Below the pieces are notes generated by a model that searched no databases, was not told the origin of the DNA, and saw only the letters and a list, made by a program, of their open reading frames with translations. The position numbers and the translations under genes are program-made. A DNA stretch of 40,863 nucleotides, taken from assembly GCA_902618335.1 (NCBI GenBank), contig CACNAI010000009.1, positions 1 through 40,863 on the forward strand, written 5' to 3'. This document shows positions 24,455 to 34,663 of the stretch, piece by piece. Within the stretch, counting starts at the first letter, position 1. Each line of letters begins with the position of its first letter. The DNA comes from an uncultured Prochlorococcus sp. GTDB lineage: Bacteria; Cyanobacteriota; Cyanobacteriia; PCC-6307; Cyanobiaceae.

Positions 24455-24886
24455 TCAAGAAACAAATCTACTATAAAGCCATCTTATAAAAGGACCTAAA
24501 ATAGGAACTGGTGCAAAAGTGGGACCGCAAAAATCAAAGTAATCTCTATGCTCTTTTATTAATCCATTTTCACCAAATAATAAACGTGTAGTTCCAGGAT
24601 AAATAAATTCTTTACCCATAATTTTTAAACCCATTGTCCATTCAACAAATCCACAATTTCCAGTTATGGAAATCGCATGAGTTTTTAAAAAAACATCATC
24701 ACATCTTTTAACTAGCTTTTCTTGAGCTTTAATATAAGAATCTAAGCCCTCTGTTTCCTGGGTTGGGTCTACAAAAATAACATTCTCATTATAAAATTCA
24801 GCCCATTTTTGTTTTGTTGGTGCATCTATACCATAAGGTTTAGTAAATAATCCTTTTAAATCCTCAATAGAAATTACTTTTGTCAT
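24455..24886 (-). CDS. NTF2-like / SnoaL-like domain protein
   Basis: A small soluble protein of 143 residues with the cone-shaped NTF2-like fold pattern: an N-terminal helix (PTKQKWAEFYNENVIFVDPT), a central strand-loop region (GNCGFVEWTMGLKIMG) and a beta sheet with GTTRLLFGENGLIKEHRDYFDF. The fold serves as a ligand pocket or cyclase in many families, so no reaction can be assigned. There is no signal peptide. It converges with the GNAT gene after 23 bp. Its 5' side opens on the non-coding stretch that carries the decayed tRNA-Gly repeat. Confidence 0.75.
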   Translation of the reverse strand: MTKVISIEDLKGLFTKPYGIDAPTKQKWAEFYNENVIFVDPTQETEGLDSYIKAQEKLVKRCDDVFLKTHAISITGNCGFVEWTMGLKIMGKEFIYPGTTRLLFGENGLIKEHRDYFDFCGPTFAPVPILGPFIRWLYSRFVS

Positions 24887-24909: not shown

Positions 24910-24930
24910 TTTAAGAGATACAAACATTAA

Positions 24931-24982
24931 AAGCGGATGAAGACATTCGAATAATCTACAATCTGCTCAAAAGGGCTGCAAT
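24931..24982 (-). repeat. Decayed tRNA-Gly 3' copy (putative old attachment site)
   Basis: The first 21 bases (AAGCGGATGAAGACATTCGAA) match the 3' end of tRNA-Gly(GCC) at 20 of 21 positions. After that the match drops to about 60 percent, yet the run AAGGGCT continues like the AAGGGGCT that follows the 27703 copy. The resemblance therefore extends beyond the tRNA-identical part, as expected for an att site shared by related elements. It cannot fold as a tRNA. Confidence 0.6.
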
Positions 24983-25236
24983 ATAGTAGTAAATAATTCA
25001 AACTAAAACTTTAAAATTTTTTTGTTCCTTATATTGACGAGCCATGCAGATATTATTGCAGATGAAATTTTGAAATTTTTCTTCATTTAGATTCATGCAA
25101 AGTTAATGCATAAGCGGTTTTTTTAATTTTTAAATTTTTAGTAAACGATAGAAATAATTTTAAAAATATTTCAAATTATCTTTGAACGAACTAAAAAAAA
25201 AATTTATTGTTATGTTGATCCTATATTCATTTAGAT

Positions 25237-26730
25237 ATGGTATTAAATAAGAACTTTAGAGCTTCAACTCTTATACCAATCTATACAAAAGCAGGAATAA
25301 CTAATAAATTAAATTTTCTATCTTATTGGAAACTTAAAAATAACTATTTAAATGTTGAAATGAAGTTAAGTTTTAGAGATGCAAAAGGACAAAAATTTAA
25401 GGAAAAACACATTAAGATTGATCCCAAGCCCAAGGTTTATGAATTATCACTTGAAGAGCTTATGGAAAAACCAATTTTAAAAATAAAAGATGGATTTAAT
25501 TCATATGTTGAAATTGAAGTATTTTTTGAGAGAGAGCCGTTAATCAAATATCCAGCAATAATTTATAGTCTAGAAAATGAAAATTACTCCAGCTCAGTTC
25601 ATTCTTGTTTAAGAACTTTTAATCCTTCCGAAAAAATTCCCACCTATTTTAAGGAACTTAATCAAACTGGATTTGATTCTTTTTTCAAAAAAAACATAAA
25701 AAACTATATCTTATTTATTGGAGGTGAGAAACAGGAAACATATAATTTCAATATCTCCTTAATAAACAAAAATAATAAAAAAATTTTTTCTAAAGAAATT
25801 AAGCTTAAAAATAATTGCGCAAAAAAATTATTCAATATTGTTCTGGAAGAGGAATTCAATCTAGATAAATATGAAGGGGAAATACTAAAAGTAATTATTG
25901 GACATGATATTGAAGATATATTTCCAAGATTTTATGTTGGAAATTATTCAACAAGTAGCTTACCTTCGATCACACATACTTTCTTTGACGAGAGCAATTT
26001 ACCCAAAACTAATAAAAATCTTCAAAAAAATAATTTAGCTTCCGCTTTTATATTTCCCTTACTTAAAGAGTATAATCTCATTTCAAGCATTTCATCCTAT
26101 AAATCAAATCAGATATGGAAGGGACAAATAATTATTAAATTATTAAATCAAGAAGGAAATACACTATTTAAAAAGTATTTAAATCAATCCCAATTTAACC
26201 TTTTTAATAATATTTCGAAAAACTACACAGATGAATTTTTCAATATCTCGGAAAACTCTAATTTAGAGAATTTATTTTGTAAGTATGAATTTATATCTGA
26301 AAATTTTCCTAAAAGATTTAAGTTAGGTCTCAATATAGGTCCAAAATATGAATCTAATAAATCTACTAATATTTGTTTTTCTCCTCAAATAAGTGAGCAA
26401 GATTTAATGAAAAAAGAATTTAATACAACTTGGGCTCCGATTGGTGGGTCTTCAAACTTTAATGTATTTTTTCACAATACATCTTTTAACTTAAAGTCAT
26501 CATGTGATCATCTTGAGGTTATTATATTTTCTAATAATGGAGAGAATAGAACTTTAAATTTAAATTTAAAGCCTGATCAAAGTATTTTATTTAATTCTTC
26601 AAATAAAGATATACGCAGAATAATTGGAGAGGAATTAGGTTACCTATACATAAGAACTTCAAACCCTTTTTTTAGTTGTTGGTATTTATCTATTAGTCAA
26701 AATGGAGTAGGTGGAGATCACTCTTTTTAG
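25237..26730 (+). CDS. Large repetitive beta-rich protein of unknown function (497 aa)
   Basis: I do not recognise the family. By eye the protein consists of four diverged modules of about 100-125 residues (roughly 5-130, 146-253, 267-385, 395-497). Each opens with a short hydrophobic edge such as STLIPIY, NYILFIGG, SAFIFPLL or TTWAPIGG. Each continues with strands of the type IIKLLNQEGNTLFKKYL or NISLINKNNKKIFSKEI, and most close with a T-C-F-like end (SCLRTFNPS, THTFFDES, NICFSPQ). There is no signal peptide and no membrane segment. Lysine, asparagine and serine are abundant. It precedes the methylase by 57 bp to its preferred ATG, so the pair may form an operon. A role in surface glycan or carbohydrate handling is inferred from that neighbour only. 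Confidence 0.7.
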   Translation: MVLNKNFRASTLIPIYTKAGITNKLNFLSYWKLKNNYLNVEMKLSFRDAKGQKFKEKHIKIDPKPKVYELSLEELMEKPILKIKDGFNSYVEIEVFFEREPLIKYPAIIYSLENENYSSSVHSCLRTFNPSEKIPTYFKELNQTGFDSFFKKNIKNYILFIGGEKQETYNFNISLINKNNKKIFSKEIKLKNNCAKKLFNIVLEEEFNLDKYEGEILKVIIGHDIEDIFPRFYVGNYSTSSLPSITHTFFDESNLPKTNKNLQKNNLASAFIFPLLKEYNLISSISSYKSNQIWKGQIIIKLLNQEGNTLFKKYLNQSQFNLFNNISKNYTDEFFNISENSNLENLFCKYEFISENFPKRFKLGLNIGPKYESNKSTNICFSPQISEQDLMKKEFNTTWAPIGGSSNFNVFFHNTSFNLKSSCDHLEVIIFSNNGENRTLNLNLKPDQSILFNSSNKDIRRIIGEELGYLYIRTSNPFFSCWYLSISQNGVGGDHSF

Positions 26731-26787
26731 GATTTAGACTTCTCTGAAGTAAAGTATTATGATTATCATTTGATTTCAATAGCAATA

Positions 26788-27420
26788 ATGCAAAAAAATT
26801 TCAATAAACAAGAATTTTTTTGGAGCGAAACTTACGCCGAAGAATATGCAAAAAAAAATAAAAATTTTGATAAAAAATTAATCTTAGAAGGATGGTCCAC
26901 AATTCTTAGAAAGATAAAAACAAAACCTACTAAAATATTAGAATGTGGAGCAAATATCGGGAGAAACATAGATGCCTTAAAAGATATTTATCCAGAAACT
27001 AAATTTACTGCGATTGAAATATCTTCAGGTGCTTGCACAAAATTAATCAATAAATTTCCAAATTTAGAAGTTATAAATACAAGTATCTTAGAAAGCAGTT
27101 TGAAAAGTAATAATTATGACATTGTTTTCACTATGGGCGTTTTAATACATATTCATCCTGATAACCTACTTTCAAATCTTAAATTAATAAAATCTTATTC
27201 AAGTAAATACATTATTTTTGGTGAATATTTCAATAGAACTCCTAATCAAATAAATTATCAAGGAGAAAACGACATTCTATTTAAAAATGATTTTGGCAAA
27301 ATTTTTATAGAAAATTTTAATTCTGAATATAAACTTTTAGATTATGGTTTCCTATGGGGATATATCTATGATTTGGGAGGTTTTGATGATATAACATGGT
27401 GGGTCTTTGAAAAAATTTAA
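26788..27420 (+). CDS. SAM-dependent methyltransferase, pseudaminic-acid-associated methylase type
   Basis: This is a class I methyltransferase of 210 residues from MQKNFNKQEFFW. Motif I is ILECGANIGRNIDAL, and later IVFTMGVLIHIHPDNLL and the C-terminal FDDITWWVFEK match the small family of methylases found in pseudaminic or related nonulosonic acid gene clusters. Such enzymes are thought to modify surface sugars. The frame is open to a TTG at 26770, but the ATG at 26788 gives the usual start. No nonulosonic acid synthesis genes lie in the window, so it stands alone as cargo. Confidence 0.8.
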   Translation: MQKNFNKQEFFWSETYAEEYAKKNKNFDKKLILEGWSTILRKIKTKPTKILECGANIGRNIDALKDIYPETKFTAIEISSGACTKLINKFPNLEVINTSILESSLKSNNYDIVFTMGVLIHIHPDNLLSNLKLIKSYSSKYIIFGEYFNRTPNQINYQGENDILFKNDFGKIFIENFNSEYKLLDYGFLWGYIYDLGGFDDITWWVFEKI

Positions 27421-27692
27421 AATTCTCACAAATTTGTTTTTGCTAAAAGAAGAGTTCTCTTAACCTGGGGAGGAAATTTTTAATATAATGACGAACTATT
27501 TAATTAGATAACCATAACTATAAATTAAATCTGAAATAAACATAAGTATTAAATACAGTTAATATGAATATGTAATCAAAATATAAATTTTTATTACTGA
27601 CGGCCATTTATAAAAATGCTATTGGTATTAAATTATTTTATACAAATTGCAAGCATATTTTAGTAATATTTCTAACAACTAAAAAGGTCTCT

Positions 27693-27702
27693 TTACAAAC
27701 AC
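27693..27702 (+). repeat. TTACAAACAC decamer, copy 2
   Basis: It lies directly against the left 46-bp repeat and is identical to the copies at 24900, 30845 and 30855. Confidence 0.55.
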
Positions 27703-27748
27703 GAAGCGGATGAAGAGATTCGAACTCTCGACATTCTCCTTGGCAAGG
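27703..27748 (-). repeat. Distal attachment-site repeat, exact copy of tRNA-Gly 3' part
   Basis: 46 bp identical to 30921-30966. It covers tRNA nucleotides 29-72 (anticodon stem-loop through the 3' end) plus two bases beyond, in the same orientation as the intact gene. It lacks the 5' part of the tRNA. An intact tRNA at one end and a partial 3' copy at the other is the normal outcome of tyrosine-recombinase integration into a tRNA gene. Confidence 0.9.
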
Positions 27749-27819
27749 GGCTACGCTTTCCCCATAACATGAGTCATAGCAATACTTTAAAGAAATAAAA
27801 TATTAAATATCATTTAATT

Positions 27820-27838
27820 AGTGCAGAAATTAGTGCAA
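27820..27838 (+). repeat. Paired AGTGCA motif, left inner end
   Basis: AGTGCAG (27820-27826) and AGTGCAA (27832-27838) start 12 bp apart. The right inner end carries AGTGCAG twice with the same 12-bp spacing (30810-30816, 30822-30828). Matching direct repeats inside both ends are what arm-type recombinase sites look like. Confidence 0.55.
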
Positions 27839-27946
27839 GAATTTATAAATCTAAATTACTGAGTTATGAGTAGTACAAAAATAACAACTCTCCATAATAG
27901 ATTGATAAAAGGTAATTTTAAGAACTAATTAATAAATATAAAACTG

Positions 27947-27963
27947 AGATCACAATGTGATCT
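27947..27963. promoter_or_regulatory. 17-nt perfect palindrome, likely operator
   Basis: AGATCACA-A-TGTGATCT is a perfect inverted repeat around a central A. It ends 10 bp before the -35 box of the element promoter. Its half-sites would suit a dimeric repressor or activator. The neighbouring ribbon-helix-helix-like product is an obvious candidate ligand, but this is inference. Confidence 0.5.
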
Positions 27964-27973
27964 GAGTAAATGC

Positions 27974-28002
27974 TTGACAAATAGAAACATAGCCAATATA
28001 TT
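27974..28002 (+). promoter_or_regulatory. Sigma-70 promoter of the element operon
   Basis: A consensus -35 TTGACA (27974-27979), a 17-bp spacer and a -10 TATATT (27997-28002) sit 23 bp before the first ATG of the element. Transcription would begin about 28009, leaving a short leader. It is the clearest promoter in the window. Confidence 0.65.
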
Positions 28003-28025
28003 GGTAACACCTGTTAATTAAAGTT

Positions 28026-28691
28026 ATGCCAAACAGCGCAAATAACGAATCATTAAACATTACTGATGAAGTGATAAAGAAATCAGCAACTATAAAAGCT
28101 TATACAGAGTGGAAAAAAAACACTTCCTATTCAGAAGACATAAAAAATAAAGTTGAATTTGCTATGCAAGTAAATGAAATAGGATTCGAAGATGATGGTC
28201 AACCTTACAATGAATTTAATGTAATTGAGAGATATGCCTACAATGATAGTGATGCAGCAAGATCAGTTGAATCTATAAATGACCTTGATGAAAAAACCAA
28301 AAGCGAATGGAATAGGCCCAAAACAAAAGATGAAGTAGAAAAAGATAGAAGAGAAGCTGAAAAGTTTTTTGAAGTAGCCGTAGAAAGGTCTTGCATTTCA
28401 ACAAAAGCTGCTTTTCTAAAATCAGAGAGATATCAACTACAAGTTCCGTCTGGTTTAGATATCTTAATTCAAAGTGCTAGTGCAGCCCAAGGAAGATCTG
28501 CTGCTTCGTTCGCTTTGTATGCATTGGAATATGGCTTAAACCAACTATTAGAAAATGGATCAATCCCAAAAATTGCAGAAAAAAAATATCAATCACATTG
28601 TGAAATGCTTGCTGCACTAGGAGATGTTAAAACACTGTTTAAAAAAGTTGGAGAAAGAGATCCTTATTTTGAAGAAAAATCCTGTTACTAA
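28026..28691 (+). CDS. Element gene 1: protein with ribbon-helix-helix-like segment (221 aa)
   Basis: I do not recognise a named family. The first 120 residues are acidic and helical, with no clear domain. Residues about 134-175 read as one strand (RYQLQVPSG), a helix (LDILIQSASAAQ), the turn GRSAA and a second helix (SFALYALEYGLNQLL). This is the pattern of ribbon-helix-helix DNA-binding proteins of the MetJ/Arc class. It is the first gene after the TTGACA promoter and its palindrome, so autoregulation is plausible. Two hairpins follow its stop before the next gene. Confidence 0.7.
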   Translation: MPNSANNESLNITDEVIKKSATIKAYTEWKKNTSYSEDIKNKVEFAMQVNEIGFEDDGQPYNEFNVIERYAYNDSDAARSVESINDLDEKTKSEWNRPKTKDEVEKDRREAEKFFEVAVERSCISTKAAFLKSERYQLQVPSGLDILIQSASAAQGRSAASFALYALEYGLNQLLENGSIPKIAEKKYQSHCEMLAALGDVKTLFKKVGERDPYFEEKSCY

Positions 28692-28705
28692 AGATTTTTC
28701 CCTTA

Positions 28706-28762
28706 GCTGATATTATCAGCCTCCCATGAAAAAGTGCATCAAACCCCGCCAGGCTGATGCAC
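28706..28762 (+). other. Two adjacent hairpins between element genes 1 and 2
   Basis: GCTGATATTATCAGC (28706-28720) is a 15-nt perfect palindrome. After 13 bases comes GTGCATCA (28734-28741), a 13-nt C/G-richer loop and TGATGCAC (28755-28762), an 8-bp stem. No T run follows, so these are not standard terminators. They could be mRNA processing structures, protein-binding sites or a small RNA. The second stem also contains GTGCA, like the end motifs. Confidence 0.5.
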
Positions 28763-28805
28763 AAAGGGAGTCCAAGAAACCACTCTTATCCCCATAATTA
28801 TTTTA

Positions 28806-29492
28806 ATGGCAAATTTAAATTTAGAAGGTATTACTAAGAAAAAACTTTTTTGTACCGGTCCCTCACTCTTAAGTGAATATATTGCTAATCCCGATCCTTG
28901 CCCATTACCAATGTGGGCAAGTCATATTGCGAAACCCGATAAAAAATCTTCTTTCGATTTAGACCAATACAAAAAGACCCATAAAGAAGTAGAAACTTTC
29001 GTTAATCCCATTTTTCAAAATATGTTGAGCAGTGCTTATCATTATGAGCCTGATACCAAAAAATTAAAATGTGTGATTAAAGGAAAAACAATCTTCGGAG
29101 TTCCTGATTTATTAGCCACCACCAAAGAAAAAATTTTTGTATGTGATATCAAGACAGGCGAACGAAAAATTACAGAGCATTCACTCCAAGTTGGGACTTA
29201 CGCCTTTATGGCTTTAGCTCAAGGCATTGCCCAAGATATTGGTGGTCTCTATCTTGCATATGGATCAAAAAAAGAAAATTTAGAAATAATTGAACTACCA
29301 AATATTGAAGATATATGGACTTTGGAAAGGCAAGTTAAAGCAGAAGAACTAATGGATTTACTTGAAGAGGAAAATGAGCCTACTCCAAACCCATCAGAAA
29401 ATAATTGTAGATATTGTAAATGGTCTAACAGATGTAATGTCGCGCATAAATCAACAAAGAAAGTAGAAATGTTCTCGGTATTGAAAAAATGA
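28806..29492 (+). CDS. Element gene 2: Cas4/AddB-like PD-(D/E)XK nuclease with cysteine cluster
   Basis: A protein of 228 residues. The nuclease core reads GVPD (D101), then VCDIKTGER with D114-x-K116, and a helix with Q128 (HSLQVGTYAFMAL), the order of RecB-type PD-(D/E)XK enzymes. The C-terminal CRYCKWSNRC (C201, C204, C210; C-x2-C-x5-C), together with an N-terminal cysteine (C16 or C32), is the arrangement that holds a 4Fe-4S cluster in Cas4 and AddB. It therefore probably cuts or resects DNA ends. It overlaps the next gene by 4 bp. No CRISPR array or other cas gene is present, so a CRISPR role is not suggested. Confidence 0.82.
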   Translation: MANLNLEGITKKKLFCTGPSLLSEYIANPDPCPLPMWASHIAKPDKKSSFDLDQYKKTHKEVETFVNPIFQNMLSSAYHYEPDTKKLKCVIKGKTIFGVPDLLATTKEKIFVCDIKTGERKITEHSLQVGTYAFMALAQGIAQDIGGLYLAYGSKKENLEIIELPNIEDIWTLERQVKAEELMDLLEEENEPTPNPSENNCRYCKWSNRCNVAHKSTKKVEMFSVLKK

Positions 29493-29905
29493 AAAAATCT
29501 GCAAAGTTTAAAAAAATTATAGGCATAGTAAATTGTTCAAGCCCATATTTGATTATTCATCTAGAAAGCAAATTTGAAGAAACAATTTATGCAGAATTAT
29601 CTTCAGATTCTTTTCCAATACATCATGCAAAAATGATGATGGGTCAAGAATTACTTTTTGATAGAGATGATGGTCAGAACCAATTAGCAAGAATATTACC
29701 TTTTACTCGCCAAAAACCGGAAGTTATAAGCAAACTAATTAGCAAATTAATTAACCAAGGCAAACATAAATTATCCAAAATCCCAGTTTTAGATTCACAA
29801 GATTCATTGCAAGAAGATACTAAAGATTTAAAAAATAAACTCTCGTTTCTTCTAAAACTTGAAAGTCTTTACTTAGAAGATCCTCACAAAGATCAAATTA
29901 CCTAA
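29489..29905 (+). CDS. Element gene 3: unknown protein (138 aa)
   Basis: No family is recognised. The N-terminal 75 residues look like a compact alpha/beta or all-beta unit (KKIIGIVNCSSPYLIIHL, then ETIYAELSSDSFPIHHAKM). The C-terminal 60 residues are helical and charged (PEVISKLISKLINQGKHKLS, LKNKLSFLLKLESLYLED). The start overlaps the end of the nuclease gene by 4 bp (ATGA), implying translational coupling and probably a shared function with it. There is no signal peptide or membrane helix. Confidence 0.72.
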   Translation: MKKSAKFKKIIGIVNCSSPYLIIHLESKFEETIYAELSSDSFPIHHAKMMMGQELLFDRDDGQNQLARILPFTRQKPEVISKLISKLINQGKHKLSKIPVLDSQDSLQEDTKDLKNKLSFLLKLESLYLEDPHKDQIT

Positions 29906-29938
29906 CTCAAAATCCTATTTTTTATCACATTCAGTACG

Positions 29939-30550
29939 ATGATTACCAAAACAAGATCAATACAAACTTATTACAAGGGATACTATTTTAGAAGTCGCCT
30001 TGAGGCAAGATACGCCGTATTTTTAGATTATTTAGGAATTCGCTGGAAATATGAAACGGAAGGATACATCATTGACAAAAATGAATTTTCTGAAAGTTTC
30101 GGTCATGTTGGTGAGGCATACCTTCCAGATTTTTTTCTTCCTGATTTACATATTTATTTAGAAATTAAACCTGAAGGACCTACTGGACACTCTAATTTTT
30201 CTGAAGATGTAAATAAAGCGTTAGCTTTTGGCGCCTACGTATGTCAAGGACTTCCTGAGGAGAATGATATAAACCCTGCTGGATGGATCGAGAGAGGTTT
30301 TGACAATCCATACGCTGACAAAAGATATTCATTACTTGTACCCTTCGATCATGGTTATGACTGGTGTTATTGTCATTCACAAAAAAAGATTGGAATAGAA
30401 TATGAAGGGAGAAGCGATAGATTAATTCCTAGAGATCAAAAAACTGATGATAGGGGACATAATTCAGATGCTCTAATACTTAGACAAGCTTGGCGAGCTG
30501 CAAGAACTGCAAGATTCGAACATGGCCAAAGAGGAATGTTATGGAAATAA
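29939..30550 (+). CDS. Element gene 4: second PD-(D/E)XK nuclease-like protein (203 aa)
   Basis: The N-terminal half has the layout of TnsA/Vsr-like restriction folds. YYFRSRLEARYAVFLDYLGI carries E22, YLPDFFLPDL carries D64, and IYLEIKPEG carries E75-x-K77, giving an E...D...E-x-K site. The C-terminal half (about 100-203) contains an aromatic and cysteine stretch (DHGYDWCYCHSQKKIG) and an arginine-rich end (RQAWRAARTARFEHGQRG), possibly for DNA contact. Proteins with this nuclease core occur in phages and integrated elements. It differs in motif order from the Cas4-like nuclease two genes upstream, so they are not duplicates. It starts 33 bp after gene 3. Confidence 0.78.
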   Translation: MITKTRSIQTYYKGYYFRSRLEARYAVFLDYLGIRWKYETEGYIIDKNEFSESFGHVGEAYLPDFFLPDLHIYLEIKPEGPTGHSNFSEDVNKALAFGAYVCQGLPEENDINPAGWIERGFDNPYADKRYSLLVPFDHGYDWCYCHSQKKIGIEYEGRSDRLIPRDQKTDDRGHNSDALILRQAWRAARTARFEHGQRGMLWK

Positions 30551-30789
30551 ATAACGAAGAAGTTTATGATCCAGATGATAAGGAGATTATTGAAGTATTA
30601 AATAATTACCTTGAAACGAGATCAAAAATGCTCGATAACTTACAGACAATAATTGGACTGCTGATGGAACATCTTGTTGCATATAAAGAACAGCAATCAC
30701 ATCTAAGACAATTAACCAAATTACTTCAAACAAAACGAATAAAGGGATATAAAAACCACCTTAAAGATTGCTATGACAAAGATATTTAA
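30541..30789 (+). CDS. Element gene 5: small helical protein (82 aa)
   Basis: An acidic start (MEINNEEVYDPDDKEIIEVL) leads into one long predicted helix with heptad-like leucines (LDNLQTIIGLLMEHLVAYKE, HLRQLTKLLQTKRIKGY), so it is probably a coiled-coil protein. The frame is open further upstream to 30490, but the ATG at 30541, inside the last codons of the nuclease gene (10-bp overlap), gives a cleaner N-terminus. It closes the element operon. No function is recognised. Confidence 0.6.
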   Translation: MEINNEEVYDPDDKEIIEVLNNYLETRSKMLDNLQTIIGLLMEHLVAYKEQQSHLRQLTKLLQTKRIKGYKNHLKDCYDKDI

Positions 30790-30809
30790 AATAAAAATCA
30801 AACATCATT

Positions 30810-30828
30810 AGTGCAGATTCAAGTGCAG
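30810..30828 (+). repeat. Paired AGTGCAG motif, right inner end
   Basis: AGTGCAG occurs at 30810-30816 and 30822-30828, starting 12 bp apart, matching the pair at 27820-27838. Both are preceded by ATCATT or a close variant. Confidence 0.55.
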
Positions 30829-30844
30829 AATCGATATTATGCAC

Positions 30845-30864
30845 TTACAAACACTTACAAACAC
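30845..30864 (+). repeat. Tandem TTACAAACAC decamers, copies 3 and 4
   Basis: Two head-to-tail copies of the decamer also found at 24900 and 27693. They lie about 60 bp inside the right attachment repeat. Confidence 0.55.
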
Positions 30865-30890
30865 TTATTTAGAAAATATCTCTAACCAAT

Positions 30891-30913
30891 AAAAAACCCT
30901 GTCTATAACAGGG
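30891..30913 (-). terminator. Rho-independent terminator of tRNA-Gly
   Basis: On the minus strand CCCTG, a 7-nt loop TTATAGA, CAGGG and six T form a standard hairpin 10 bases after the tRNA 3' end. It lies on the element side of the right repeat, so it was apparently brought in by the element. Confidence 0.8.
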
Positions 30914-30920
30914 ATTTAGG

Positions 30921-30966
30921 GAAGCGGATGAAGAGATTCGAACTCTCGACATTCTCCTTGGCAAGG
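30921..30966 (-). repeat. Proximal attachment-site repeat within tRNA-Gly
   Basis: 46 bp identical to 27703-27748. The inner limit falls in the anticodon stem (tRNA nucleotide 29), which is a usual crossover region for tRNA-targeting tyrosine recombinases. Confidence 0.9.
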
Positions 30967-30994
30967 AGATGCTCTACCACTGAGCTACATCCGC
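30923..30994 (-). tRNA. tRNA-Gly(GCC)
   Basis: A complete 72-nt cloverleaf. Acceptor GCGGATG pairs with CATCCGC, the D stem is GCTC/GAGC, and the anticodon stem TCTCC/GGAGA holds the loop TTGCCAA with anticodon GCC (plus-strand 30960-30962). The T arm is GAGAG-TTCGAAT-CTCTT, and the discriminator base is T. CCA is not encoded. Its 3' part is duplicated at 27703. Confidence 0.97.
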
Positions 30995-31055
30995 ATAACG
31001 TTTTTATTTTATCTCAAAGAGGGGATCAATGATAGAAATAATTAAATTTTTTCAA

Positions 31056-31532
31056 TTAATTTAAATTTTTAATCAAGGATCCCATCTCAATTGCTTGTAG
31101 AGCATAATTCCAACCAAGATTATTTTTAATTCCTGCTCTTTCTAGAGCCTGCTGCATAGTATCAGTAGTCAAAACTCCAAAAATAATTGGAACATTGTTT
31201 TCATATGAAACTTGTGAAATACCTTTGCTAGCCTCAGATATAACTACATCATAGTGGGAAGTTTCCCCACGAATCACAGCCCCTAGAGCAATTACTACGT
31301 CATAACTCTTTTTTTTCATGAGGGTTTTAGCTGCGATTGGTAATTCGAATGAACCAGGAACCCAAACTATATCTAATTGATTGCTTAATTCAGATGTGTC
31401 TAAACCATGTCTTTTTAAACAATCAAGACAACCAGATAAAATTTTATTTGTAATTAAATCATTAAATCTTGCTATTACAATCCCAACTTTTAAAGTAGAT
31501 GCATTAGTAAAAGATCCCTCAAAAATAGCCAT
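31056..31532 (-). CDS. ribH: 6,7-dimethyl-8-ribityllumazine synthase
   Basis: It condenses 5-amino-6-ribitylamino-uracil with 3,4-dihydroxy-2-butanone 4-phosphate, the step before riboflavin. The 158 residues include [30 protein letters not shown], the conserved [16 protein letters not shown] with its catalytic histidine, and [20 protein letters not shown]. This is standard length for the icosahedral or pentameric enzyme. It lies 49 bp downstream of psbZ in the same direction and may be read with it. The intact tRNA-Gly lies beyond its 3' end. Confidence 0.97.
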
Positions 31533-31581
31533 TAAATTTTATTTTGATATATTAATAGACTCTCACGAAAAGGTATTAAGT

Positions 31582-31779
31582 TCAAACTAATGAAGAAACA
31601 ATTCCTGTAACAAAAACCAAAACAACCCAAACAGCAGCAATAGAATAAATTTTTCTCCTACTTTCTCGCTGTCCTTCCTCAGTAGAAGGTTGAGTCACAT
31701 ATAAAACGGGCACTCCAACTACCGCAATCAAAGATGCAAATAATAGAGCATTTACGAAGAAAAAGTTAACAGCTTGCAT
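31582..31779 (-). CDS. psbZ: Photosystem II protein PsbZ
   Basis: A small photosystem II subunit with two thylakoid membrane spans. The 65 residues comprise helix 1 (VNFFFVNALLFASLIAVVG), the conserved VPVLYVTQP turn, a short polar stretch (STEEGQRESRRK) and helix 2 (IYSIAAVWVVLVFVTGIVSS). PsbZ (Ycf9) stabilises the interaction of PSII with antenna and nearby small subunits. It marks the organism as an oxygenic phototroph. Confidence 0.95.
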   Translation of the reverse strand: MQAVNFFFVNALLFASLIAVVGVPVLYVTQPSTEEGQRESRRKIYSIAAVWVVLVFVTGIVSSLV

Positions 31780-31802
31780 AATTCAGTCTTAAGTTTCAAG
31801 TT

Positions 31803-31808
31803 ATTATA
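31803..31808 (-). promoter_or_regulatory. Putative psbZ -10 box
   Basis: A TATAAT hexamer on the minus strand 23 bp before the psbZ ATG. No good -35 box lies at the normal distance, so it could be activator-dependent or chance in AT-rich DNA. Confidence 0.3.
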
Positions 31809-31921
31809 AATACTATAATCTCATGAAAATGATAATTTTTAGAGAAAATTTACATACTTTAGCCACATTAAAATGCAAAAAAAATTTTTCTACCTAATAT
31901 CTATTTAGGAATTAAAAAAGT

Positions 31922-34663
31922 ATGCAAGAAGATACGTTAATTCAAAAAAATTTATTTGCTATTGGTAATGAAAATAATGAGCAAGAAGAAATAAGAAAAA
32001 TTCCAGAAGATTTATCTTGTGAAGATTTAAAAAAAGAATCTAAAAAAAGACCTAGACAAAGAAAAAATTCAACTAATTTAATAAATAAATTCAAAAATGA
32101 TTTAATTTCAAATAACAAAAATGTTTGTATCAATGAAGAATCTTATAGCTATAAAACAGTTTCAAAACTCAAATTAACTCCTGTAATGAAGCATTATGTA
32201 ACTCTAAAAGAGGAAAATAAAGATAGGTTATTACTTTATAGATTAGGAGATTTTTTTGAATGTTTTTTTGAGGATGCTGTATTAATATCTAACCTTTTAG
32301 AAATAACACTTACCAGTAAAGATGCTGGAAAAGAGATTGGTAAGATCCCTATGGCAGGGGTTCCTCATCATGCAATGGAAAGATACTGTGCTGATTTAAT
32401 TAAAAAAAATTATTCTGTGGTTATATGCGACCAACTTGAAAAAAGTTCTGGAAATTATGGGACTCCAATTAAAAGAGGAATAACAAGAATAATTACTCCT
32501 GGAACTGTAATCGAAGAGGGGATGTTGATAGCAAAAAAAAATAATTGGATTACTGCTATTTACTTATCAGAAGAAAACTCAGATAAATCTTATGAATGGG
32601 GTATATCAAAAGCGGATGTAAGCACAGGAGAATTAATAACTTTAGAAGGTCAATCTCTTTCAAAACTATTTGATGAAATTATTAAATTAGATTCTTCAGA
32701 AATCATTGTAGGAAGCAATGAAGTTAGAAATTTATTAATTAAGGGAAATAGTCACATAACATATACAGTCTCTCAAGAGACTAATTTTGGTATTAATGAA
32801 GCAAATTATCTAATAAAAAAATATTTCCAAATTGCAAGCCTAGAAGGAATAGGACTTAAAAATTTAAACAATGCGACTAGATCTCTTGGAGGTTTATTAA
32901 ATTATTTAGAAAAAATTAATCCTTCAAATTTAGATAAAGATTCTTCTGTAAAAATCTCATTAGACTTTCCACAAATTCAATTTGTTCATAACAAATTAAT
33001 TATTGATTATCAAACTCAAAAAAACTTAGAAATCAAAAATACACAAAGAGAAAACAATTATGTAGGTTCGCTACTATGGAGCATTGATAGAACCTATACT
33101 TGCATGGGTGCAAGGTGTTTAAGAAGGTGGATAGATTCTCCACTATTAAACGTTAATGAAATTCATAAAAGACAAAATATAATTCAAAACTTTATTGAAT
33201 CTAGACAATTACGTGTAGATACCCAAAATTTACTTAGAGCAATGGGGGATTTAGAAAGACTTGCAGGTAGAGCTTGTGCAGGGCATGCAAGTCCTAGAGA
33301 CTTGATTGCAATAGCGGAAGGTTTAAAAAAATTGCCTAGATTAAAATCTATAATTGAATTGTTTAAATATGATCTCCCAGATTGGACTGGTCAATTAAAA
33401 AATATTGATGCAGGGCTCTTAGAGTTAGCTGACATTATAAGTTTTAAACTAATAGAAAATCCTCCTTTGAATATCAGTGAAGGAGGCATGATCCACGATG
33501 GTGTTGACAATATATTAGATGGTTTACGTAATTTAATGGATGATTACTCTGAGTGGCTAAATAAAGAGGAATTAAAAGAAAGGAAAATTAGCAAAATTTC
33601 AAACCTGAAAATTCAATTTCATAAAAATTTTGGTTACTACATTTCTATAAATAAATCAAAAATTAATTTAGCTCCGCAACATTGGATCAAAAGGCAAACA
33701 CTTACTAATGAAGAAAGGTATATCACTTCAGAAATTAAAAATAAAGAAAATAAGATTTTCCAAATAAAAAGTAGAGCTTCATCAAGAGAATATGAAATTT
33801 TCTGCGAATTAAGAAATAAAGTTGCTGAAAAAACAAAACAAATAAGATCAATCGCAAAATCTATAGCATCTCTTGATGCATTGCTTGGTTTATCAATTAC
33901 TTCATTAGAAAACAATTTTATAAAACCTTCATTAATACCAATAAATGATTCAATGACAAAAAATAGTACAAAAATTATCGCAGGAAGAAATCCAATTGTA
34001 GAGCAGTTGTTAAATGATAAAAACTTTATAGCGAACGATATCTCTTTTGATGAGAATCAAAAATTAATTATATTAACTGGTCCTAATGCAAGCGGAAAAA
34101 GTTGCTTTATAAGACAACTTGGTTTAATACAAATTCTCGCACAAGTTGGTAGCTTTGTTCCAGCTAATAATGCTGCAATCAAGATTGCAGATAGGATTTT
34201 TACAAGAATTGGGGCGGTTGATGATCAATCATCTGGACAATCAACATTTATGGTAGAAATGTCTGAAACTGCATCAATTCTAAATCAAGCAACTTCTAGC
34301 TCACTAGTTTTACTTGATGAGATAGGTAGAGGGACATCTACTTTTGATGGACTTTCAATAGCTTGGTCAGTAAGTGAATATCTTGCAAAAAAAATTCAAT
34401 GTAATACTATTTTTGCCACCCACTATCATGAGCTGAATTATTTAAAAAATTCAAATAATAATATACAAAATTTTCAAGTTTTAGTAGAACAAAATAACGA
34501 TCAGCTAATTTTTAGTCACAGGATTGTCAAAGGGGGCTCAAACAAAAGCTACGGTATAGAAGCAGCTAAATTAGCAGGAGTTCCAAAAGAAGTTATAGAA
34601 AAAGCAAAATCAGTCTTAAATTCTTTAGAAGAAAATAATAAATTAAATTATAATAATGATTAG
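31922..34663 (+). CDS. mutS: DNA mismatch repair protein MutS
   Basis: MutS recognises mismatches and small loops. The 913 residues are longer than the usual ~855 because of a lysine-rich N-terminal extension of about 75 residues (with [13 protein letters not shown]). The mismatch-contacting F-x-E motif is intact (F111-F-E113 in [11 protein letters not shown]). The ATPase has Walker [10 protein letters not shown] (about 718-726), the loop [14 protein letters not shown], Walker [17 protein letters not shown] and the signature THYHEL. The C-terminus is short and lacks a long dimerisation tail. It is divergent from psbZ, with 142 bp between. Confidence 0.97.

Follow-up and report, generated by a model that had tools for sequence, protein, structure and literature searches.

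A probable CIME-like, integrase-less segment with two predicted nucleases at a tRNA-Gly gene of Prochlorococcus

Introduction

A role in reshaping the genomic islands of Prochlorococcus is attributed to mobile elements at tRNA genes. The tycheposons of this genus, reported by Hackl et al. in 2023, are said to integrate at tRNA genes. Their size is given as 4–200 kb (PMC10872708). Another point of comparison is the cis-mobilizable element (CIME), tandem accretion being described for streptococcal ICE-derived elements (PMC5704250). Our literature search on a Prochlorococcus tRNA-Gly genomic island returned nothing related.

The locus considered here lies in a window (the whole stretch of DNA analysed) of 40,863 nt from an uncultured Prochlorococcus sp., and its features are listed in Table 1. 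Its rightmost part, segment B, is in our view probably a CIME-like, non-autonomous tRNA-Gly integrative element that is mobile only with an integrase supplied in trans, and its genes 1–5 probably form a phage-derived DNA-processing cassette.

Table 1. Features of the tRNA-Gly locus, in window coordinates.
Feature	Position	Strand	Description
Left core flank gene	24455-24886	minus	143 aa; SnoaL/NTF2-like by eye
Third attachment remnant	24930-24975		decayed tRNA-Gly 3' part, at the empty-site junction
Segment A	24931-27702		bounded by attachment copies, in tandem with B; two genes
Segment A gene	25237-26730	plus	497 aa
Segment A gene	26770-27420	plus	216 aa; methyltransferase domain protein (PF13649, E 2.2e-7)
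Segment B	27703-30920		3.2 kb, five genes
Distal attachment copy of B	27703-27748		46 bp identical to the tRNA-Gly 3' part
Distal arm of B	27749-27850		arm motif 27818-27837 (TTAGTGCAGAAATTAGTGCA)
Palindrome AGATCACATTGTGATCT	27947-27963		putative operator; listed by the scan as a terminator-like stem
Best promoter-like match	27974-28002	plus	TTGACA-17-TATATT, 24 bp before gene 1
Gene 1	28026-28691	plus	221 aa
Structured leader	28698-28770	plus	gap between genes 1 and 2; closing stem and two hairpins
Gene 2	28806-29492	plus	228 aa; predicted Cas4/RecB-type PD-(D/E)XK nuclease
Gene 3	29489-29905	plus	138 aa; no assigned family; overlaps gene 2 by 4 bp
Gene 4	29939-30550	plus	203 aa; predicted PD-(D/E)XK endonuclease, phage family phrog_21138
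Gene 5	30541-30789	plus	82 aa from its ATG; coiled-coil-like by eye
tRNA-proximal arm of B	30807-30920		motif 30808-30827; common to integrase-bearing elements
Proximal attachment copy of B	30921-30966		inside tRNA-Gly
Intact tRNA-Gly (GCC)	30923-30994	minus

Results

Two tandem segments at the tRNA-Gly gene

As the original prediction had it, segment B is bounded by an exact 46-bp direct repeat, which is still 93% identical when extended to 55 nt; the right copy consists of the 3' part of tRNA-Gly plus two bases. The prediction of one 3.2-kb element is ruled out, in that comparison with empty sites sets the left end of the insertion at 24931. Strains with an empty site, whose existence had been proposed as a check, are common: of 40 Prochlorococcus genomes compared, 35 lack an insertion at the tRNA-Gly site. 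These 40 were the best matches, a non-random choice, out of 254 genomes (of 266) in which a match was found. The junction of 24930 with the tRNA 3' end is base-exact in 34 genomes and within 2 bases in one. Because empty-site genomes join at 24930/30922, the insertion amounts to 6.0 kb and comprises segments A and B. The 143-aa gene of the left flank directly adjoins tRNA-Gly in the empty-site genomes.

Including the remnant at this junction, there are three tRNA-Gly remnants, at 24930, 27703 and 30921. The outermost is identical at 33 of 46 positions, with 21 nt at 95%, and its score of 39 is reached by none of 1000 shuffles, which, like those used below for arm ends and for pairings of genes 3 and 5, preserve composition only. 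Segment A has no recognisable integrase, and its 497-aa product has no Pfam match at E 0.01. Given this outer remnant, segment A is clearly older than B and decayed. The three attachment copies would be present because B inserted beside segment A, which is older and belongs to the same family.

A genome that is 60.56% complete and in 51 contigs, with repeats that favour false joins, raises the question of a chimera formed in assembly or single-cell amplification through the repeated tRNA sequence. This is highly improbable, however, given that the left junction falls on the exact empty-site base, the core genes normally found there follow on the right flank, and natural elements with matching sequence exist for both arms of B, in one case as a complete arrangement bounded by attachment sites.

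Arms of segment B and their integrase-bearing relatives

The 114-bp proximal arm of B recurs, over nearly its whole length and at 86–95% identity, in five of 265 other genomes. The same five genomes hold the only close copies (97–100%; the next is at 49%) of one tyrosine recombinase, encoded beside the arm, and the arm homology stops ahead of the start of the recombinase gene. The helper recombinase envisaged in the original prediction thus gains a candidate, judged from sequence, whereas the mobilisation of B, like its function, is something we infer. Both arms of B carry the motif given in Table 1; its pattern was composed after both sites had been seen, which makes its shuffle count post hoc.

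A complete integrase-bearing element of the tRNA-Gly kind, L144, is 9.3 kb long, has a 45-bp repeat and carries a phosphonate-type ABC transporter. Its distal arm and that of B are only about 71% alike; in a separate shuffle test of the distal ends, their similarity was reached by 0 of 1000 shuffles. Segment A is similar to L144 at its distal end (0 of 1000 shuffles) and to B at its proximal end (1 of 1000); comparison of the distal ends of A and B gave no signal (151 of 1000). Further integrase-less segments bounded by attachment sites occur at tRNA-Gly in genomes G258 (L082) and G051 (L147).

No integrase family was matched by any of the five genes of B, in agreement with the original prediction, though one of them may be a recombinase too diverged to be recognised. 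No match to the L144-type integrase was found at E 1e-10 in the source genome (G000, ~61% complete), nor to the tRNA-Gly integrase in the viral contigs. B may be an immobile relic, that is, what is left of an autonomous element whose integrase was deleted and which is now fixed. Such an origin would suit the clearly older, decayed neighbour, and CIMEs are described as arising by decay, then accretion (PMC5704250). We nevertheless find it doubtful, as B is not visibly decayed: its attachment copies agree at all 46 positions, the motif is intact in each arm, and its five ORFs are open. Rather unlikely, in our judgement, is the opposite reading of B as an active parasite of tRNA-Gly elements, which would keep only arms, borrow an integrase and use its own phage-type exonuclease/resolvase pair to process or copy excised DNA at the expense of the host element, tandem accretion being normal; if this were true, the L082 and L147 segments would share the lifestyle of B with different cargo.

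Gene 1 and the upstream regions of genes 1 and 2

Between the repeats lie the five co-directional ORFs originally predicted, all on the plus strand. The predicted promoter ahead of gene 1 corresponds to an 11/12 match, the best of the region and a consensus match only; promoter-like matches across the region number 25, fewer than in shuffled sequences (mean 33.3). The ribbon-helix-helix label for gene 1 was a reading by eye, and no library matched the protein. The C-terminal part of gene 1 is akin to a small protein conserved in Prochlorococcus, with matches in 195 of 266 genomes at E 0.1, mostly about residues 68–208.

The structured leader upstream of gene 2 folds well (z -3.54, 0 of 200 shuffles) and has no Rfam match. 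A special RNA at this position was considered and rejected; the leader is not distinctive because other gene-2 relatives show comparable upstream folding signals (rough scan, mononucleotide shuffles).

Gene 2, a Cas4/RecB-type nuclease

Gene 2 is, as far as can be told from sequence, a Cas4/RecB-type nuclease with a four-cysteine motif. The RecB-type core and the C-x2-C-x5-C cluster that had been predicted are present (C201-x2-C204-x5-C210), with a further Cys at 32, and C32, C201, C204, C210, H59, D101, D114, K116, Q128 and Y132 are invariant in 12 sequences. Matches were obtained with Pfam PF12705 (2.7e-12) and PF01930 (Cas_Cas4, 3.8e-8, above cut-off), with the PADLOC models for Cas4 (2.4e-16), DruK (2.1e-6) and a Cas4-like nuclease associated with Argonaute (3e-5), and, by profile search of the PDB, with Cas4 4r5q (1.3e-5). 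The NCBIfam cas4 model gave 44.5 bits, below its cut-off of 65. A repeat scan of 25000–33500 showed no CRISPR-like array among the 20 of 41 direct families listed.

The nearest relatives of gene 2 are chromosomal-island proteins, not phage proteins, and a phage origin of this gene was rejected, as a search of phage records gave no match at E 1e-3. Among viral contigs, the gene 2 query matched a single one, of 1,068 bp, over 40 residues, and the gene 2 profile matched none.

Gene 4 and its phage relatives

Gene 4 is a predicted PD-(D/E)XK endonuclease, which appears nearest to T7 endonuclease I by sequence and to TnsA/Hjc by fold, the structural matches being weak. Its catalytic pattern, read as E...D...E-x-K in the original prediction, is E22, D64, E75-x-K77 and is invariant in 56 sequences; a C-terminal motif, ARFEHGE, is also conserved. 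The single sequence scores 12.9 bits against Pfam Phage_endo_I (cut-off 29.1, E 0.087), and with a profile of the 56 sequences the PDB matches are all T7 endonuclease I (E 1.4e-4). Structure prediction had been proposed as a check of the nuclease fold. For gene 4, TnsA and Hjc take top rows in VIA-align, together with mitoribosomal chains, at a Z of 6.6 at best; Foldseek returned nothing at E 0.001, its top rows being influenza PA endonucleases. The analysis supports the view that genes 2 and 4 encode distinct PD-(D/E)XK nucleases, their nuclease activity being predicted.

A single-query search with gene 4 found no viral relative, and the profile search found at least 576 confirmed ones among the 600 matches listed. 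In four of four annotated records examined, these phage relatives sit among replication/recombination genes. The pairing of two such nucleases had been called unfamiliar, which holds in part: in Idiomarinaceae phage 1N2-2 the gene-4 relative directly adjoins a Cas4-domain exonuclease, accompanied by a single-strand annealing protein, but only 2 of 73 gene-4 records have a Cas4-like nuclease within two ORFs. The pairing is only occasional, since 62 of the 73 are without such a nuclease in the available flank.

A phage-type gene 4, an exonuclease-type gene 2 and small size would also fit a phage satellite that a cyanophage packages and whose nucleases process satellite or helper DNA. We consider this quite unlikely, because no capsid, terminase, packaging or transfer family was recognised among the five genes (3 and 5 being without assigned family), and queries with genes 1, 2 and 3 found no B-like viral contig, those with genes 1 and 3 having no viral contig match at all.

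Genes 3 and 5, and the cassette as a whole

Gene 3 has one clear homologue, in G285, which lies downstream of a DUF2130 nuclease and adjoins this gene and two HNH-type genes inside another tRNA element. Weak matches (E 0.01–0.09) occur in eight further genomes; the four examined (L039, L040, L041 and L043) fall within genes of unrelated appearance and were discarded. Kinship of gene 3 with the F2 family found beside other Cas4-like proteins was also rejected (hhalign probability 1.1), and the single-sequence fold of gene 3 was left unused (mean pLDDT 42). No relatives of gene 5 were found; neither the F1 coiled-coil family nor the small protein of G285 is supported as a relative, with 1496 of 2000 shuffles scoring as high. 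The five-gene cassette is absent from every other genome of the 266-genome set; a search for its gene order elsewhere, as the original prediction had proposed, found no further locus with it.

Because the tRNA site is variable and the operon there combines two dissimilar nucleases with small partner proteins, genes 1–5 may instead be anti-phage or anti-element cargo at a tRNA hotspot, with nucleases that destroy foreign DNA and a gene 1 that controls expression. Nuclease swapping is frequent in conflict systems, and the gene 3 homologue keeps company with different nucleases; the DruK and Argonaute-associated hits of gene 2 point the same way. Against this, PADLOC at E 0.1 gave nothing for genes 1, 3 and 4 and only BrxA at 0.01 for gene 5; no complete known anti-phage defence system of PADLOC-DB is present in B, gene 2 alone being clear, and the phage relatives of gene 4 belong to replication loci. 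We favour the phage-derived DNA-processing cassette and regard the defence cassette, less probable as it is, as a strong rival.

Discussion

As a CIME-like element, B would rely on a tyrosine recombinase of Prochlorococcus, using its tRNA-Gly attachment site and arm sites while encoding no recombinase itself. Excision and integration would occur when a matching recombinase enters with an autonomous element, and B would move between cells by whichever route the autonomous tRNA-Gly elements take. Genes 1–5 would be expressed as one operon from the promoter ahead of gene 1, with gene 1 as regulator and genes 3 and 5 as partners, and the two nucleases would trim and resolve branched DNA, as their phage relatives probably do in replication and recombination.

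The locus shows an island assembled from tandem segments in which attachment arms are kept and the integrase is missing. With a probable helper enzyme and the precise sequences of the arms in hand, mobilisation in trans is directly testable; if it is true, part of the integrase-less islands may still be mobile.

Comparison with known systems

B resembles CIMEs in keeping both attachment sites without integration genes, in tandem with a segment likewise bounded by attachment sites at the same tRNA. It differs in belonging to a Prochlorococcus tRNA-Gly family, the streptococcal elements being ICE-derived, and in its intact five-gene operon with two nucleases. Like tycheposons, B is bordered by a tRNA gene, and its relative L144 combines nutrient cargo with a divergent tyrosine recombinase (PF00589, E 9.6e-5, under the Pfam cut-off); B itself, with no tyrosine recombinase of its own, a length of 3.2 kb and nuclease cargo, departs from tycheposons in these respects.

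At the level of the genes, Idiomarinaceae phage 1N2-2 shares the adjacent nucleases, but has a primase-helicase, an annealing protein and a helicase, none of which B has; a search of this phage for a gene 3 relative found none. Gene 2 shares the nuclease core and four conserved cysteines of Cas4/RecB-like exonucleases and passes the Pfam Cas_Cas4 cut-off; it differs from CRISPR-associated Cas4 in falling under the NCBIfam cut-off and in that none of the other four genes (1, 3, 4 and 5) matched a Cas family. Gene 4 has the E...D...E-x-K pattern of T7 endonuclease I, TnsA, Hjc and Vsr, but is longer than these and has a conserved C-terminal ARFEHGE motif, its junction cleavage being a prediction.

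Extent of the insertion at tRNA-Gly

The original prediction proposed looking for strains with an empty site, and most of the loci compared are of this kind. The tRNA-Gly/ribH side of the site (ribH being named by eye) is conserved: of the 266 Prochlorococcus genomes, 254 match a 661-bp query that spans it. In 35 of the 40 loci compared, taken from the best matches to this query, the core gene at 24455-24886 immediately adjoins the 3' end of the tRNA. The remaining five (L082, L089, L091, L095 and L109) differ or hold inserts at the site. Empty-site loci join 24930 to 30922, exactly to the base in 34 cases and to within 2 bases at L097 (the L103 alignment is gap-free only over the 474 bp nearest the tRNA), and the insertion is therefore 5,991 bp long. 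Its left edge carries a decayed tRNA-Gly remnant (33/46 identical), so that the insertion consists of two segments, A and B, delimited by three attachment copies. The 46-bp repeat, the tRNA-Gly and five ORFs were all recovered as previously described, and of the single 3.2-kb element first proposed, the tRNA-Gly repeats bracketing segment B stand, while its extent is replaced by that of A plus B. The attachment-site anatomy of segment B is near certain.

Segment A is an older, attachment-bounded segment in tandem with B, carrying a 497-aa gene of unassigned family and a methyltransferase. Its outer end is similar to the outer end of an element that carries an integrase (0/1000 shuffles); at the inner end the similarity is to the inner end of B (1/1000). 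The ends of A and B distal to the tRNA show no resemblance to each other (151/1000).

Coordinates of features in the window and in related loci
Feature	Locus	Position	Strand
Core gene	window	24455-24886	
Insertion (A + B)	window	24931-30921	
Segment A	window	24931-27702	
Segment B	window	27703-30920	
Motif TTAGTGCAGANWNWAGTGCA	window	27818; 30808	
Palindrome AGATCACATTGTGATCT	window	27947-27963	
RNA leader	window	28698-28770	
Gene 2	window	28806-29492	+
Gene 3	window	29489-29905	+
Gene 4	window	29939-30550	+
Arm of B	window	30807-30920	
tRNA-Gly element, G174	L144	5348-14748	
Recombinase tandem, G272	L143	4157-7241	
tRNA-Thr element, G285	L067	2739-11019	

A shared arm and its recombinase

The 114 bp of B before the tRNA (the arm) recur at 86-95% in five other genomes (G272, G174, G224, G306 and G048); among the 97 genomes listed, matches outside these are shorter or weaker. 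The arm adjoins an intact tRNA-Gly in four, and a 48-nt tRNA-Gly fragment in G272. Next to it in all five lies the same tyrosine recombinase (97-100% identical; next-best match in 266 genomes, 49%), in which the catalytic residues R, RH, H and Y can be made out by eye; the N-terminus of the G048 copy aligns as two pieces. Homology to B ends short of the recombinase gene start. The window contains two exact copies of the motif TTAGTGCAGANWNWAGTGCA; two copies arose in 0/100 shuffles, the pattern having been picked after the sites were seen.

G174 holds a complete 9.3-kb tRNA-Gly element with a 45-bp repeat, the recombinase, a phosphonate-binding-type ABC transporter, a phosphodiesterase, an HD-domain protein and other cargo. 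In G272, recombinase genes flank the tRNA-Gly fragment, the second being recombinase-like (40% identical); this is a natural tandem of elements. Short attachment-bounded segments with no integrase ORF seen occur at tRNA-Gly in G258 (L082) and G051 (L147), neither of which is among the 84 genomes with a recombinase match at 1e-10. The genome carrying the window, an incomplete assembly (1.08 Mb, 51 contigs, 60.56% complete), likewise has no match at this threshold. The chances that B is mobilised in trans are, in our judgement, about even.

Gene content of segment B

As predicted, a promoter-like site precedes gene 1; it is the strongest in the region. Genes 2 and 3 share 4 bp, and the start of gene 5 falls within gene 4. 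A perfect palindrome shortly upstream of the promoter-like site is a possible operator. Between genes 1 and 2 lies an RNA leader that folds well (z -3.54); it has no match in Rfam, and its hairpin, searched as an exact pattern in 251 loci, is present in copies of the window only.

Gene 1 may encode an RHH protein, judging by eye from the sequence; proteins matching its C-terminal part at E 0.1 occur in 195/266 genomes, one of them 165 aa in its complete reading. Gene 3 has one clear homologue (30% across 100 residues), within a tRNA-Thr element of G285 that also carries an integrase, an F3 gene (a family described below), a DUF2130 nuclease and two HNH-type genes.

Gene 2 exceeds the Pfam cut-offs for both PDDEXK_1 and Cas_Cas4 and scores under the NCBIfam cas4 cut-off; H, D, D-x-K, Q..Y and four cysteines are invariant in 12 sequences. 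At E 0.001, 14 further genomes among the 266 hold a relative. The five genes, which the original prediction suggested searching for together, do not recur as a set in the 13 regions compared around these relatives (L024-L036): none encodes a relative of gene 1, 3 or 4, and gene 5 has chance-level matches only (best E 0.035). These regions hold a conserved module of Prochlorococcus islands, in which the gene-2 relative is adjoined by a small F1 (13/13), F2 (11/13) and a divergent F3 (10/13); F2 and F3 lack a convincing Pfam match, the one exception being the F3 of L027, whose C-terminus bears a T5orf172 domain.

Gene 4 matches phrog_21138 (1.4e-29) and has relatives in 28 phage records, 18 covering at least 80% of its length. 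Within the genus it was found in the window's genome only (249 genomes sampled), one further match (E 0.009) lying within a 1,019-aa frame; when the search was widened to 149 relatives, three partial matches appeared, all outside the genus. Its 56-sequence profile finds only T7 endonuclease I in the PDB (four sequences at E up to 1, best 1.4e-4). The AlphaFold model (pLDDT 79, pTM 0.76) is nearest to TnsA (Z 6.6) and Hjc (5.7); Vsr and XisH-type proteins rank lower, and all of these matches are below the tool's safe level of Z 8. In four annotated phage records the relative has primase, helicase, RepA/DnaB or annealing-protein genes nearby, and in one of them a Cas4-domain exonuclease directly follows it. 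The pairing with a Cas4-like nuclease is recurrent yet not usual, since such a nuclease occurs in the available flank in 11/73 records, within four ORFs in 5/73 and within two in 2/73. We give a DNA-processing role for the payload of B somewhat lower than even odds.

Comparison with known elements

Taken as a whole, segment B is rather probably a non-autonomous integrative element whose cassette is of phage origin and serves in DNA processing. Helper-dependent elements in general have been reviewed (PMC11389934), and another picocyanobacterial tRNA recombinase family is known (PMC10187409). Tycheposons are the known tRNA elements of Prochlorococcus; we do not class B among them because PMC10872708 describes them with a tyrosine recombinase and a size of 4-200 kb. 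The insertion anatomy fits the definition of cis-mobilizable elements (CIMEs) and accretion as given in PMC5704250, here in tRNA-Gly elements of Prochlorococcus.
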